Below, piece after piece: positions 8,106 through 61,216 of a DNA stretch of 64,000 nt. Position 1 is the first letter of the stretch. Every line of letters starts with the position of its first letter. Source of the DNA: Sinomonas sp. ASV322 (GTDB taxonomy: Bacteria > Actinomycetota > Actinomycetes > Actinomycetales > Micrococcaceae). Below the pieces are notes generated by a model. It worked only from the letters and a program-made list of their open reading frames with translations, did no database searches and was not told the origin of the DNA. Location: positions 1 through 64,000 of the forward strand of contig NZ_JAVFJJ010000005.1 in the NCBI RefSeq assembly GCF_030908245.1. The letters are read 5' to 3'. A program made the position numbers and the translations under genes.

Positions 8106-10403
8106 CTACCCCCGCTTCTCAAAACGGATCATGACGGCCTTATAGGCGGGGGTGTTGGATTCCCGCGCGACGAGCTCCTTGTGGACCAGGACATTCGTCT
8201 CGGGATAATACGCAGCGGCGCACCCCTTGGCGGTCGGATACGCAACAAGCCTGAATCGTTCCGCGAGACGGTCGGACCCGTTGAACGTCGACACGACATC
8301 AACCAGCTCCTGATCGGCAAATCCGAGTTCGTCGAGGTCGTCTGGATGGACGAGCACGACTCGTCGCGCCTTGGAAATTCCGCGATAGCGGTCGTCGAGG
8401 CCGTAGATGGTCGTGTTGTATTGGTCGTGGCTCCGGAGGGTCTGGAGAATGAGATGGCCGGGCGGCGCCTCGAGATATTCGAAGGGGCTGACCGTGAAAA
8501 TCGCCTTGCCGGCATCCGTGGCGAACGTCCGCGTATCGCGGGGCGGGCTCGGCAGCACGAATCCGCTCTTGCCCCTGACTCTGCCGTTGTAGTCCGCGAA
8601 ACCCGGAATGGTCCGGGAAATGTGGTCGCGGATCACGTCGTAATCCTCCGCCATGGCCCGCCAGTCCACAGGGTGGCTGTCCCCGAACGTCGCCTGGGCC
8701 ATCCGAGCGACAATGACCGGCTCAGCCAGGAGATGCTCGGAGACGGGACGGAGGCGGCCTTGGCTCGAGCGCACAACGGACATCGAATCTTCGATGGAGA
8801 CGAATTGGCGACCGGAAGGGTGCTTGTCGTCGATATCCGTGCGCCCGAGCGTCGGGAGGATGAGCGACGTGCGGCCATGGACGATGTGGGATCGATTCGG
8901 CTTGGTCGAGATATGCACCGTCAGGCCTGCGCTTTTGAGCCCCCGCTCAAGGAGCGCCGTGTCGGATCCGGCCGAGGCGAAATTGCCGCCCATCGAGACG
9001 AAGACGTCGACCTCCCCGGCTTCGAGCGCGTGCTGGGTTTCGACCGAGTCGTAGCCGTGCTTTCGCGGCATCGGAAAGCCGAATTCCCTTTCGAGCGCGG
9101 CACTCAGGGCCTCTGTCGGCTTCTCCCAGATCCCCATCGTCCGGTCGCCCTGGACATTGGAATGACCGCGGACCGGGCAGGCGCCCGCGCCGGGCTTGCC
9201 GAAATTCCCCTGCAGGAGGAGGAGGTTGATGATCTCCTTGAGCGTGGGGACTGAATGCGGCTGCTGCGTGAGCCCGAGGGCCCAGCAGATGATGGTGCCT
9301 TTGGAGGCGGCCAGCATGTCAGCGACAGTTTCGATCTCCGCTCGGGCCAGGCCCGTGGCCGCCTCGGTGGCTGCCCAGTCGATCGCGCGGCGCGCCTCCG
9401 CATACGCCTCGAAGCCAAGCGTCTGCGACTCGACGAATTCACGGTCGACGACGGAGCCCGGCTCGCACTCTTCGCGCACCAGAAGGAGGTGGCCCAGAGC
9501 CTGGAGGAGGGCCAGATCTCCTCCGATCCTGATCTGCAGGAATTCATCGGCGATGGATGCTCCGTCGCCGACGACGCCTTCAATTGTCTGCGGGTCCCTG
9601 AAATTCAGGAGGCCCGCCTCGGGAAGAGGATTGACGGCGACGACCTTGCCGCCATTCTTCTTGCAATCGGCGAGCGCTGACAGCATACGGGGGTGATTCG
9701 TGCCGGGGTTCTGGCCGATGACGAGGACGAGCTGCGCGTGGTGGATGTCCTCGAGGGAAACCGTTCCCTTGCCGATGCCGATCGTCGGAATGAGCGCGAC
9801 GCCCGACGATTCATGGCACATGTTCGAGCAGTCGGGAAGATTGTTGGTCCCGAGGCTGCGGGCGAAGAGCTGGTACATGAACGCGGTCTCGTTCGCGGTG
9901 CGCCCCGAGGTGTAGAACACGCAGCGGTCCGGCGTGGTCGCGTTGATGTGCTCCCCGATCAGGGCAAAGGCCTCATCCCACGCGATCGGCGAGTAATGCG
10001 TCTCGCCCGGGCGGATGACGACGGGAGCACTGATGCGGCCACGGCTTCCGAGCCAGAATTCGCTCTTGCCCTCGAGCTCCTCAATCGAGTATTCGGCCCA
10101 GAACTCGGGGGTCACGGTGCGAAGGGTGCCCTCTTCGGCGATCGCCTTGGCGCCGTTCTCACAGAACTCGGCCGGCTTCCGAGCGCCCGTGATCGACTCG
10201 GGCCACGCGCAGCCCGGGCAGTCGAAGCCGCCCCTTTGGTTGATGCGGAACATGGAGCGGGCCGTGCGGACGAGGCCAGCCTGGGCCAGGCCTCGTTCCA
10301 TCGCCACCGCGACTGCCTTGACCCCCGCGGCGGCCGTCTTGGGGGGATGGACCTCCAGCGCATCCTCATCGATGTCGTGGGGGTCTGGCTTCTGGGCAAA
10401 CAC
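8106..10403 (-). CDS. FdhF/YdeP-family molybdopterin oxidoreductase (formate-dehydrogenase-like)
   Basis: 765 residues from a GTG at 10403 with AAGGAG 9 nt upstream; the open frame further upstream looks non-coding. It is a DMSO-reductase-superfamily alpha subunit: FDCPGCAWP near the N terminus, the NMCHESSGVAL stretch with a candidate Mo-ligand cysteine, GQNPGTNHPRM, and a C-terminal molydopterin-dinucleotide-binding domain (HDQYNTTIYG). It lacks the classical four-cysteine Fe-S cluster motif, as YdeP-type members do. The substrate is not proven. Next to purU, which releases formate, a role in formate oxidation is plausible. It is probably co-transcribed with the glcG-like gene. Confidence 0.82.
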   Translation of the reverse strand: MFAQKPDPHDIDEDALEVHPPKTAAAGVKAVAVAMERGLAQAGLVRTARSMFRINQRGGFDCPGCAWPESITGARKPAEFCENGAKAIAEEGTLRTVTPEFWAEYSIEELEGKSEFWLGSRGRISAPVVIRPGETHYSPIAWDEAFALIGEHINATTPDRCVFYTSGRTANETAFMYQLFARSLGTNNLPDCSNMCHESSGVALIPTIGIGKGTVSLEDIHHAQLVLVIGQNPGTNHPRMLSALADCKKNGGKVVAVNPLPEAGLLNFRDPQTIEGVVGDGASIADEFLQIRIGGDLALLQALGHLLLVREECEPGSVVDREFVESQTLGFEAYAEARRAIDWAATEAATGLARAEIETVADMLAASKGTIICWALGLTQQPHSVPTLKEIINLLLLQGNFGKPGAGACPVRGHSNVQGDRTMGIWEKPTEALSAALEREFGFPMPRKHGYDSVETQHALEAGEVDVFVSMGGNFASAGSDTALLERGLKSAGLTVHISTKPNRSHIVHGRTSLILPTLGRTDIDDKHPSGRQFVSIEDSMSVVRSSQGRLRPVSEHLLAEPVIVARMAQATFGDSHPVDWRAMAEDYDVIRDHISRTIPGFADYNGRVRGKSGFVLPSPPRDTRTFATDAGKAIFTVSPFEYLEAPPGHLILQTLRSHDQYNTTIYGLDDRYRGISKARRVVLVHPDDLDELGFADQELVDVVSTFNGSDRLAERFRLVAYPTAKGCAAAYYPETNVLVHKELVARESNTPAYKAVMIRFEKRG

Positions 10404-50929: not shown

Positions 50930-51324
50930 AGTCCGTTGACTCCTCATTCCCCCCATCGAAAACGACAAACCCCAACAAAGATACAGGAATGACAGCGTCG
51001 GGAAAACTCGGATATACGACACGCTAAATGCAAGGATAGTTCGGCGGCAACGAGGTATCGTCGCACCAGAGAATTTGACGGGATCGATGCGCGGAAAGGG
51101 TACGGGATCAACAATTGAAGCCACTGCTCGAACCCAGCGAGGACCGTCTCAGCCGCGCCATAGCGGGGATGCCGCCCCTCGCCGATTCCCTCCCGGGAGC
51201 AGTTTCGCGACGTCGCAATCGCACCGAAGTGCCACGCGATGAAGCCGATCTAAATGTCCGCAAAACCGGACGTCCGGAATATTCGAACACGTCTAACGGA
51301 TTCCCCGGACGGCCCATACAAACC
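50930..51324. other. Intergenic region with no convincing gene
   Basis: Roughly 400 bp of AT-richer sequence between the MerR start and the pheromone-gene terminator. It should hold the MerR promoter. It includes a perfect palindrome CCGGACGTCCGG (51266-51277) of unknown meaning. I see no open frame with a ribosome-binding site. Confidence 0.5.
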
Positions 51325-51362
51325 AAAAGGCCCCGCCACCATCAAAGGTGGGCGGGGCCCTT
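51325..51362 (-). terminator. Rho-independent terminator of the repeat-peptide gene
   Basis: A GC-rich stem (51329-51340 with 51347-51359, one bulged G). On the minus strand it is followed by TTTT, so it terminates transcription coming from the repeat-peptide gene at 51719. This is one of the few canonical terminators with a T-tract in the window. Confidence 0.75.
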
Positions 51363-51455
51363 GGCGCGCTCCTCCGGGTCGCAAATCAACAGCGGAATGG
51401 AGGGGAACCAGACGCCAGCCTCTCGGCGATCTGGCTCTGAGCGGCGAAGGTCAGG

Positions 51456-51719
51456 TCAGAAGCTCTGCTTCATCGGGTCCGGCCAGTTGCCGATCGCGGT
51501 CGCCGACATCGGGTCCGGCCAGTTGCCGATGGCCGTGGCCTTCATGGGGTCGGGCCAGTTGCCGATCGCCGTGGCCGACATCGGATCCGGCCAGTTGCCG
51601 ATGGCCGTGGACTTCATGGGGTCCGGCCAATTACCGATCGCGGTCGTCGAAGCTACCGAAACGCCTCCCAGCGCCAGAGCGCCCACGAGGGCGAACGACG
51701 CTGTCAACTTCTTCAGCAT
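51456..51719 (-). CDS. Secreted precursor with five tandem nonapeptide repeats (candidate pheromone)
   Basis: 87 residues, ATG 51719 with AAGGA 6 nt upstream. Residues 1-24 are a Sec signal peptide (MLKK, hydrophobic core, SVAS). All the rest is five copies of AIGNWPDPM at residues 27, 39, 51, 63 and 75, separated by KST, SAT, KAT, SAT and ending KQSF. The period is 12 residues (36 bp). Between copies the DNA differs at codon third positions for Ala, Gly, Asn, Pro and Asp, while the nonapeptide is invariant, which indicates selection on the peptide. It is divergent from an HTH-TPR regulator. I infer a multi-copy signal peptide precursor; I know of no characterised homologue. Confidence 0.8.
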   Translation of the reverse strand: MLKKLTASFALVGALALGGVSVASTTAIGNWPDPMKSTAIGNWPDPMSATAIGNWPDPMKATAIGNWPDPMSATAIGNWPDPMKQSF

Positions 51720-51773
51720 GTCATGTCCTTATGTTGTAGCGGGTGCATTCGGGCAGAGCGTGCTTTGTCGTGA

Positions 51774-51813
51774 TTGACACACCAAGTAAAATAACATCCA
51801 CAGCCAGTGTCAA
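51774..51813. promoter_or_regulatory. Promoter and inverted repeat between pheromone and regulator genes
   Basis: Arms TTGACAC (51774-51780) and GTGTCAA (51807-51813) form an inverted repeat 40 bp long overall. On the minus strand TTGACA (51813-51808) is followed after 17 bp by TTTACT (51790-51785), a good -35/-10 pair for the repeat-peptide gene. The repeat spans that promoter and is a natural binding site for the divergent regulator. Confidence 0.55.
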
Positions 51814-51874
51814 GCCGCCAACGTACCGATTGCCCTGTTCAGCCGGTAAGGCGGCTCCGCGGTAGGAGGAAGTT

Positions 51875-53131
51875 GTGGGGAGCGGATTCGGAGAGAAGCT
51901 AAGGGCCGAGCGACTTGAGCGCGGCCTGACGCAGGCCGAGCTCGGTAAGGACCTGTACTCACCGAGCTATATCTCTCTGCTCGAAACCGGTCGTCGCGAG
52001 CCGACGCCCGAGGTCATCCAGGAGCTCGCGCGCCGCCTCGAGCTTGCCCCCAAGGCCCTCGAGGCCTGGAGCCAGCCCGTCTCCGTCAACGACGCCGAGT
52101 ACGTCCTCGCAGGGCTGTACGCCCGGCAGGCGTGGGACATGCGCGACTATGCGCAGGCCGCGAGCCACGCCGCAACCGCCGCCCAGTTCGCCCTCGAGGG
52201 CAAGAACAACAGCGCGTGGTGGAACATGACCTACATGCAGGCCGAGTGCCTCATGAAGCAGGGCCAGCTGGCGGAATGCCAGCGGATCGTCCAGCATCTC
52301 CTCGAGCACCCCATCATCGCCGAATCAGATGGCCTTGCCGTGCGCGCGCATCAGATGCTCGCCGCGGTGTGCCACGGCCTCGGCCAGCTGGGCACCGCCG
52401 TCGAACATGCCCGGGAGGCCGTGCGCCTCGGCGCCCAGCTCCCCGCAGGCTCGACCATCTACATCGGTGCGCTGCGCGCGCTCATCGGCGCCCTCGCCGA
52501 GAGCGGTCGCCTCGACGAGGCGTGGGATTACTGCCGGATCCTCGGCACCCTCGTCGACGACGAATCCATGGGACAGCTCTCGGGCGAGGTCGAATGGGTC
52601 ATCGGCAACGTGGCCTTCATGCGCGCCGACTACGAAGAGGGCGTCAAGCACCACGAGCGCGCCGCGAAGCTCCTCTCCCCCGCGAACGACATCGAACTGT
52701 GGGCGCGGTTCAACAAGGCCTCCGCCGCCGTCCGCCTCTCCGGCGGGATCGTCGAGCCGGAGACCCTCGCCGCGATCGAACGCGCCGAGCTTGCCCTCTC
52801 GATTGTGGGCGGATCGCGGCCCGAACAGCTCGAAGTCGCGTTCATCCGCGCCCGCTGGCTCTACCTCAACGGAGAGATCACCGCCGCGATCGAGCGCCTC
52901 AAGGAGATCCACGGCGAGAAGAACGTGCTGGGCCGCCACACCGCGGGCGAGGTCGCGCTCCTGTACGGCCGGGCCCTCAAGGCACTCGGCCGCAACGACG
53001 AAGCGCTCGAGCTGCTCAAGGACGCCCGCGAGCAGTTCAGCTACGCGGGCGCCTCGGACAAGGTGCAGCAGACCATGGACGCGATCCTCGAGATCCGCCT
53101 CGCCCAGCAGCGCTCGGACCGCCCGGCTTAG
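51875..53131 (+). CDS. HTH-XRE/TPR transcriptional regulator (RRNPP-like architecture)
   Basis: 418 residues from GTG 51875 behind GGAGGA. An XRE helix-turn-helix (FGEKLRAERLERGLTQAELG, SYISLLETGRREPTPEVIQE) occupies residues 5-60. The remainder is a helical TPR array (for example YAQAASHAATAAQFALEGKN and YEEGVKHHERAAKLL). This is the architecture of RRNPP regulators such as PlcR, Rgg and NprR, which bind imported oligopeptides. It is divergent from a gene for a secreted repeat peptide, the classic arrangement of such pairs. Direct recognition of AIGNWPDP-type peptides by this TPR domain is an inference. Its 3' end is 18 bp from convergent purC. Confidence 0.85.
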   Translation: MGSGFGEKLRAERLERGLTQAELGKDLYSPSYISLLETGRREPTPEVIQELARRLELAPKALEAWSQPVSVNDAEYVLAGLYARQAWDMRDYAQAASHAATAAQFALEGKNNSAWWNMTYMQAECLMKQGQLAECQRIVQHLLEHPIIAESDGLAVRAHQMLAAVCHGLGQLGTAVEHAREAVRLGAQLPAGSTIYIGALRALIGALAESGRLDEAWDYCRILGTLVDDESMGQLSGEVEWVIGNVAFMRADYEEGVKHHERAAKLLSPANDIELWARFNKASAAVRLSGGIVEPETLAAIERAELALSIVGGSRPEQLEVAFIRARWLYLNGEITAAIERLKEIHGEKNVLGRHTAGEVALLYGRALKALGRNDEALELLKDAREQFSYAGASDKVQQTMDAILEIRLAQQRSDRPA

Positions 53132-57121: not shown

Positions 57122-57130
57122 GATCGCGGT

Positions 57131-57251
57131 CCGCCGGCTCGCCTCAGCTCCGCCGGCTCGCCTCAGTTCCGCCGGCTCGCCTCAGTTCCGCCGGTTGGCC
57201 TCAGTTCCGCCGGTTGGCCTCAGCTCCGCCGGTTGGCCTCAGTTCCGCCGG
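57131..57251. repeat. 19-bp tandem repeat array
   Basis: CCGCCGG recurs at 57131, 57150, 57169, 57188, 57207, 57226 and 57245, an exact 19-bp period. The unit is CCGCCGGCTCGCCTCAGCT with CTCG/TTGG variation between the first three and later copies. It is non-coding and lies between convergent genes. No spacers, so it is not CRISPR. Confidence 0.85.
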
Positions 57252-57321
57252 CCCCAACCCCCGCCCATGCGGCTGATCCCCTTCGCAACCGGATTTCCGG
57301 CGGTTCTGCGACGCGACGGAA

Positions 57322-61066: not shown

Positions 61067-61216
61067 CCGTTCAGGGGTCACCTCCCGCGGGTGCGCGCCC
61101 GTTCAGGGGTCACGTCCCGCCGGTGCGCGCCCGTTCAGGGGTCACGTCCCGCGGGTGAACTCCCGTTTGGGGGTCACCTCCCGCGGGTGCCACCCACGGG
61201 ACGTGACCCCCGAACG
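61067..61216. repeat. 32-bp tandem repeat (four copies) with an inverted fifth copy
   Basis: Units begin CCGTTC/CCGTTT at 61067, 61099, 61131 and 61163, exactly 32 bp apart, each with GGGGTCAC and TCCCGC. A reverse-oriented copy at about 61191-61216 can pair with the fourth, giving a long hairpin directly after aceE. The array probably works as, or grew from, a terminator. Confidence 0.8.

Follow-up and report, generated by a model that had tools for sequence, protein, structure and literature searches.

What is a short secreted protein made of five copies of one peptide doing next to a regulator of helix-turn-helix (HTH) and tetratricopeptide repeat (TPR) architecture in an actinomycete? The question is raised by a locus of Sinomonas sp. 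ASV322 (GCF_030908245.1, contig NZ_JAVFJJ010000005.1, positions 1-64,000 of the forward strand; ‘the window’ denotes this whole stretch of 64,000 nucleotides). The answer developed below is that the locus very probably encodes a peptide pheromone together with the cytosolic receptor that senses it, and that it belongs to an RRNPP-like family of actinomycetes whose peptides carry a Trp-Pro (W-P) core.

The precursor gene is separated by 155 bp from the start of the divergent receptor gene (positions of all features are collected in Table 1). Its translation begins MLKKLTASFALVGALALGGVSVASTTAIGNWPDPMKST and comprises a hydrophobic N-terminus, five AIGNWPDPM units joined by the linkers KST, SAT, KAT and SAT, and a KQSF tail (tandem repeat score 296). 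An initial annotation of this DNA had described five repeated units spelled with differing synonymous codons, a TTGACA-N17-TTTACT promoter inside an inverted repeat, a terminator after the precursor and a divergent HTH-TPR protein, and each of these is found in the window. The inverted repeat reads TTGACA-N28-TGTCAA. A simple pattern scan of the window listed neither the promoter nor the terminator of the precursor. The genome itself (4.34 Mb) holds a single receptor gene at E <=1e-20.

Is the pairing of the two genes conserved? A receptor scan of genomes found 119 relatives, and the best 80, from Sinomonas, Arthrobacter, Paenarthrobacter and Pseudarthrobacter, were read. A precursor was counted where a short divergent open reading frame (ORF) combined a hydrophobic and charged N-terminus with a W-P motif, and dinucleotide shuffles served as control. 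All 80 close loci have such a precursor, where dinucleotide-shuffled upstream DNA would give 3.05 by this rule, which rules out a chance origin of the pairing; the N-terminus is hydrophobic and positively charged in every one of them. As the initial annotation had anticipated, the relatives keep the W-P core but differ in their linkers and in the number of copies (1 to 6). More than one copy occurs in 77 of 81 precursors, the window included.

The 222 cores of these 81 precursors define the peptide. IGNWPDPM accounts for 167, VGNWPDPM for 40, IGNWPDPA for eight, IGNWPDPV for five and IGIWPDPM for two. What these cores have in common is an octapeptide, [IV]GNWPDP[MAV], in which G2, W4, P5, D6 and P7 are invariant over all units, with varying codons for G, P and D. 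Hence the repetition and selection claimed earlier for AIGNWPDPM hold, whereas its length of nine residues does not, because the leading Ala varies among relatives. Between neighbouring copies the ratio of nonsynonymous to synonymous differences (pN/pS) is 0.005 in the core and 0.62 in the linkers, where only linkers of equal length were compared. The pS between copies is high (0.52); gene conversion could depress both types of change. A stop codon directly follows core residue 8 in 69 of 81 precursors, so that the C-terminus of the last copy is fixed; the window precursor, with its KQSF end, lies outside those 69. Comparison of the relatives thus shows a conserved pairing and selection on the octapeptide.

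The promoter region is conserved to a similar degree. TTGACA-N17-TTTAC[AT]-N5-TGTCAA is exact in 79 of the 80 close loci, and TTGAC-N30-GTCAA is found in all 80. With up to three mismatches allowed, each of the 15 Sinomonas genomes contains the element just once, always at the receptor locus; a reversed control pattern has no match in the same genomes. Among diverged loci with an HTH receptor (introduced below), it is present, again with up to three mismatches, in 11 of 15 with a Sec-type W-P precursor and in five of 39 without one; none of six diverged loci of HTH-less receptors has it. This distribution is as expected if the receptor HTH reads these 40 bp. At one locus (L169) an element with two mismatches lies upstream of the receptor, followed by a fragment LGVWPAS, perhaps a decayed precursor with a doubtful start codon.

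The putative receptor matches HTH_31 (44.9 bits) and HTH_3 (44.5 bits) above cut-off, as well as several TPR families; no RNPP-named Pfam family appears for it even at E values up to 1. In the AlphaFold model the TPR part reaches mostly a pLDDT (predicted local distance difference test) of 80 to 97. A family profile matches PlcR (2qfc) with E 1.1e-9 over the HTH and part of the TPR region (profile 3-197); PlcR is the sole RRNPP receptor matched over both domains among the best 60 of 118 matches, and for ComR chains the match is restricted to the HTH. The best 50 matches listed in the structure search do not include PlcR, PrgX or Rgg, which is no proof of absence. Across 39 receptors, helix conservation is highest in helix A of repeat 5 (0.63) and of repeat 6 (0.65), closely followed by B6 (0.62). 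W241 is retained in 39 of 39, W276 in 37 and N245 in 33; these may line a peptide groove.

In the family as a whole, 143 of 295 genomes and 17 of 32 genera have a homologue of the receptor. Sixty diverged family loci were chosen by hand from among the matches listed; the initial survey that revealed their peptides imposed no W-P demand. A Sec-type W-P precursor was counted at 24 of the 60, or at 21 after removal of three ksgA fragments, against 2.0 in shuffles. Related searches gave 14 of 16 loci (one a ksgA fragment; 0.55 expected) in the order group and eight of 25 (0.65 expected) at class level, where the 25 include one family locus, L231. The false matches to ksgA (L182, L185, L186 and L217) were recognised by eye. 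L209 and L211 were dropped because they duplicate L170 and L187; L232, the same gene as L222, was left unscored.

The diverged peptides include FVGNWPDAV (L138, L139), RVGNWPDAS (L141), AVGIWPNS (L140), GPGNWPD (L142), PGIWPDS (L143), TGNWPNV (L144), VWIWPD (L151), VGEWPH (L161), VGDWPH (L164, L165, L170), VGNWPDP (L176) and PAVGNWPA (L194), among others. They vary from one lineage to the next, and genera g28 and g24 each contain different ones. GGSWPT and SDTWPA are found in a further family of the order, and class-level peptides include DIEWP, DIGWP and DISWP as well as single W-P forms at the C-terminus. A purC motif lies 3′ of the receptor in 36 of the 60 diverged loci and in 76 of the 80 close ones, with Pfam confirmation in the window, L138 and L140. 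Since the linkage to purC is shared and the cores differ, the code has changed at one inherited locus. The system reported for one genome is real there; it is not confined to it but family-wide. A search for an origin on phages or plasmids gave no match in the phages searched and one weak match in the plasmids searched (Embleya, 27%), and an origin on these was rejected. Two loci carry, beyond the precursor as seen from the receptor, an ABC_membrane and ABC_tran transporter gene (L140:2-1132 in g18, L164:3814-5235 in g17), a possible peptide exporter. At class level, short Sec-type ORFs at L234, L247, L250, L253 and L255 end in a double Cys, some with W-P before it, and perhaps represent a different peptide class.

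A second type of receptor starts at the TPR region. The HTH is absent from the three such receptors scanned with Pfam (L183, L188, L213), and in a tree of 51 receptors the HTH-less proteins form one clade (support 99/99). A divergent W-P precursor accompanies 24 of 24 HTH-less loci read; these are part of those listed, and six were picked after a W-P match had been seen beside them, 18 not. Many of their precursors are single-copy, with the motif at the very C-terminus (SIGWWPN, INNWPY, VNNWPG). In 10 of the first 15 loci a GGDEF gene on the same strand lies downstream of the receptor. Pfam confirms GGDEF in all ten and EAL too in nine (L218 was read only partly). These neighbours suggest a peptide-dependent control of cyclic di-GMP (c-di-GMP) by the TPR-only receptors. 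Two other loci (L183, L191) have a convergent downstream gene with a carbohydrate-binding module 5/12, accompanied in L191 by a sub-threshold glycosyl hydrolase 18 match.

Is the code restricted to the primary precursor? A scan of 15 Sinomonas genomes with a GNWPDP codon pattern gave 11 non-primary sites in eight of them. All 11 encode [IV]GNWPDP, one further residue and a stop, the last residue being M in eight and I, V and E once each. In lineages without the GNWPDP code, none of 13 matches read combines the preceding [IV] with a reading frame that terminates one residue past the motif. The example in the genome of ASV322 is the leaderless 11-residue ORF MYSIGNWPDPM, situated after a gene for a secreted low-complexity protein and before a convergent isocitrate dehydrogenase-like gene. 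ORFs of the form MSSIGNWPDP[MIV] are present in three further Sinomonas genomes. The isocitrate dehydrogenase-like neighbour is seen by eye in three of the four (L087, L092, L095), and its motif was not found in L088. Among these four the 36-bp ORF has a mean identity of 89%, against 35% and 28% in ungapped 60-bp flanks.

Similar sites exist in g9 (23 genomes), where eight of nine extra sites read encode the motif (in six genomes) and one is due to chance. For several extra sites, the gene a short distance upstream encodes a secreted protein of low complexity, and six of these products have no Pfam match above cut-off. At L101, L102, L105, L103 and L091 the product of the gene before the short ORF ends in FDPGSSPD, FDPGSTPD or similar, again without Pfam match above cut-off where scanned. 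Two short ORFs of g9 without evident signal peptide carry both receptor codes of their genome. They lie near 2480-2640 on the minus strand of L101 and L102. The ORF of G123 (L102) contains IGWWPN, and the TPR-only precursor there ends in IGWWPN (L226); the ORF of G243 (L101) contains IGWWPD, and its TPR-only precursor ends in IGWWPD (L352). The D/N difference thus matches between ORFs and TPR-only precursors. The sites read are part of a larger set of matches, others of which lie for example in g21 and G076. In g17 the pattern searched matches primary precursors only, and lineage-specific second-site ORFs were not found outside Sinomonas and g9. Fourteen translated extra matches in g28, g18, g29, g24 and g10, a subset of the extra matches there, look like chance frames, and L104 was rejected as a chance match. 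A frame at L282 (G028) ends in GNWPNSA where the precursor code is GNWPN[VA]; it is doubtful whether this is chance or a second-site gene.

Leaderless candidates also occur at primary loci, in g10 (..GGIGDWPHA, ..RVNWPF) and g32 (..AVG[ND]WPD, ..CVGDWPD). The HTH loci concerned are L174, L179, L181 and L190 (of the 60) and L212 and L217 (order search). They amount to six of 58, against 1.95 expected, so that any individual candidate carries less weight; the shuffling here was of base pairs without overlap, which is cruder than the dinucleotide control used above. These candidates, together with the four 11-residue ORFs of Sinomonas, are what could be expected if the peptide acted inside the producing cell only and the Sec-type leader were incidental or regulatory. 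We consider such a purely autocrine role unlikely, given the hydrophobic, positive N-terminus common to all 80 close primary precursors.

A pheromone circuit would comprise the following steps. The precursor would be exported, probably via Sec, and cut into several IGNWPDPM peptides or close variants. An oligopeptide permease would re-import the peptide (eight SBP_bac_5 genes are present in the genome), which would then bind the TPR groove of the divergent HTH-TPR protein. The peptide-bound regulator may act at TTGACA-N28-TGTCAA over the precursor promoter, in an autoregulatory manner, and perhaps elsewhere. Secretion, processing, import, binding, direction of regulation and output are all inferred here, whereas divergence of the code at an inherited locus, the conserved promoter element and the genes for the same peptide emerge from comparison of the genomes.

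A rival explanation is a secreted effector (an antimicrobial, an inhibitor or a product resembling ribosomally synthesized and post-translationally modified peptides), with the HTH-TPR protein as its transcriptional regulator and nothing more. A secreted repeat peptide beside an HTH regulator, and the ABC transporter beyond the precursor at L140 and L164, would suit this explanation. Yet the two neighbours scanned in the window by Pfam are a MerR regulator and, as the next gene past the receptor, purC; further short ORFs of the genome repeat the code, and TPR receptors that lack an HTH are likewise paired with such peptides. An effector is thus improbable, more so than autocrine action.

Several observations weigh against a peptide–receptor pair. 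A credible Sec-type precursor is present at 21 of the 60 diverged loci and a leaderless candidate at four more; the others show none, and the counting rule demands W-P, so that precursors with other motifs would be missed. Receptors without precursor could have another role. The promoter element is single in each Sinomonas genome; no wider regulon is visible, and the idea of many targets controlled through the complete 40-bp element was rejected for this genus. The HTH part of the receptor model is poor (pLDDT 34-52). The fold match is generic, the TPR domain of LGN (Z 26.7) scoring above Rap-CSF (4gyo, 22.6) and NprR (5dbk, 22.3), and designed PPR/TPR proteins and an immunity repressor outscore PlcR in the profile search, in which other HTH proteins match as well.

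The missing precursors bear on a point raised by the initial annotation, namely that orthologues lacking an adjacent repeat peptide would speak against the pairing: all 80 close relatives have a precursor, but many diverged receptors have no visible one. The diverged receptors of g24 above all lack a recognisable precursor, and three of them nest among precursor-bearing lineages in the tree of 51 receptors, which fits a loss of the precursor. That the pairing is a mere by-product of a shared divergent promoter, with receptor and peptide not interacting, is very improbable: TPR proteins and HTH regulators are common and many diverged homologues stand without visible precursor, but the pairing persists while the peptide code diverges, it recurs with TPR-only receptors located elsewhere, and the g24 receptors are nested as described. 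A pheromone with its cognate receptor remains our preferred explanation. Receptors linked to purC that retain HTH and TPR but are without visible precursor (L148, L152, L153, L155-L160, L162, L163 and others) are possible eavesdroppers.

How does this family relate to known systems? Statements drawn from the cited sources hold for the excerpts of them that were available. RRNPP(A) receptors of Bacillota (Rap, Rgg, NprR, PlcR, PrgX, AimR) are TPR proteins of 250-500 residues with or without HTH; their short propeptides are encoded adjacently, give small linear peptides and are multi-copy in some cases (PMC10075063, PMC9765709, PMC11343458). Rap alone among them lacks the N-terminal HTH. The 418-residue receptor with TPR and N-terminal HTH, and the directly adjacent gene for an 87-residue propeptide, agree with this description. 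The present family differs in its host (Actinomycetes), in the W-P core shared by its peptides, in the prevalence of multi-copy precursors (77 of 81 close ones, against 6.7% of large propeptides; PMC9765709), in the divergent promoter with its conserved 40-bp element, in the extra genes of the same code, some of them leaderless, and in HTH-less receptors that often stand beside GGDEF-EAL genes. Multi-copy propeptides are described in Bacillota (PMC9765709, PMC11343458), with up to eight copies (PMC11343458), so the number of copies does not by itself make the system new. The five-copy precursor had been proposed as a distinct version; it is distinct in being actinobacterial, not in its repetition, and what seems new is an actinomycete family with W-P peptides. 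In the excerpts, RRNPP systems of Bacillota are described without an actinobacterial member (PMC10075063, PMC12700828, PMC13220807), and actinobacterial signals are typically small molecules (PMC10075063). Searches of the open-licence PMC literature, with preprints and subscription papers outside their scope, listed no actinobacterial RRNPP-type or W-P peptide system. The string NWPDP retrieved a paper on position sensors only, and a literature search for a link to the BldK peptide of Streptomyces showed nothing relevant.

PlcR-PapR of the Bacillus cereus group resembles the present pair in its HTH and TPR domains, both covered by the profile match; the peptide is different and identity is low. 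PapR, unlike the window precursor, is presumably single-copy. Rap proteins act on response regulators. Rap-Phr systems (Phr3T, Phr105) share a TPR-only receptor and several pheromone copies per propeptide, up to eight, whereas Rap has an N-terminal three-helix bundle (PMC11343458) and the TPR-only receptors described here start at the TPR. The leaderless communication peptide (LCP) sensed by RopB in Firmicutes comes from a very short ORF that lacks a signal peptide (PMC10518010). In the present family, by contrast, leaderless copies are found alongside a multi-copy precursor of Sec type that bears the same code.

Quorum sensing by peptides and cytosolic receptors is treated as a trait of Bacillota in the excerpts (PMC10075063, PMC12700828, PMC13220807). 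If our explanation is true, Actinobacteria (Sinomonas, Arthrobacter and relatives, with signs class-wide) would have a language encoded in their genes, and its predicted peptides could be synthesized and tested immediately. The family would also provide a natural series of cognate pairs for the co-evolution of receptor and peptide code. It might connect peptide signals with c-di-GMP, and it would be an instance in which leaderless genes reiterate the code carried by a secreted precursor. A broader proposal is more speculative, and we hold it as tentative and rather doubtful: a Trp-Pro peptide language spanning the actinomycete class, with HTH-TPR receptors and c-di-GMP-wired HTH-less receptors, in which leaderless ORFs after surface-protein genes carry one or two receptor codes and operon expression may directly feed the circuit.

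Table 1. Features of the pheromone locus in the window, and related features elsewhere
Feature	Position	Strand	Evidence
Pheromone precursor coding sequence, 87 aa	51456..51719	(-)	ORF; orthologous ORF in 80/80 close relatives
Putative Sec signal peptide, ~residues 1-24, boundary inferred	51648..51719	(-)	Hydropathy and charge rule only
Core unit 1, IGNWPDPM	51615..51638	(-)	ORF reading, repeat comparison
Core unit 2, IGNWPDPM	51579..51602	(-)	ORF reading, repeat comparison
Core unit 3, IGNWPDPM	51543..51566	(-)	ORF reading, repeat comparison
Core unit 4, IGNWPDPM	51507..51530	(-)	ORF reading, repeat comparison
Core unit 5, IGNWPDPM	51471..51494	(-)	ORF reading, repeat comparison
Terminator-like hairpin and T-rich tail, 3′ of precursor	51320..51366	(-)	Fold -34 kcal/mol, z -5.4
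Promoter/putative operator TTGACA-N17-TTTACT-N5-TGTCAA	51774..51813	(-)	79/80 close relatives, same layout
HTH-TPR regulator, putative cytosolic receptor, 418 aa	51875..53131	(+)	Pfam; AlphaFold model
HTH DNA-binding domain	51887..52066	(+)	Pfam HTH_31, residues 5-64
TPR superhelix, putative peptide-binding domain	52082..53128	(+)	Pfam TPR families, model, fold search
Leaderless ORF MYSIGNWPDPM, 11 aa	Own genome, contig C10 ~10263-10298 (L087:3464-3499)	(+)	AAAGGA before start, Shine-Dalgarno-like
GGDEF(-EAL)-linked loci	L188, L192, L213, L215, L216, L218, L223, L224, L225, L226

Elsewhere in the window, tandem arrays of 19/38-bp and 32-bp units are located at 57130-57252 and 61067-61190.

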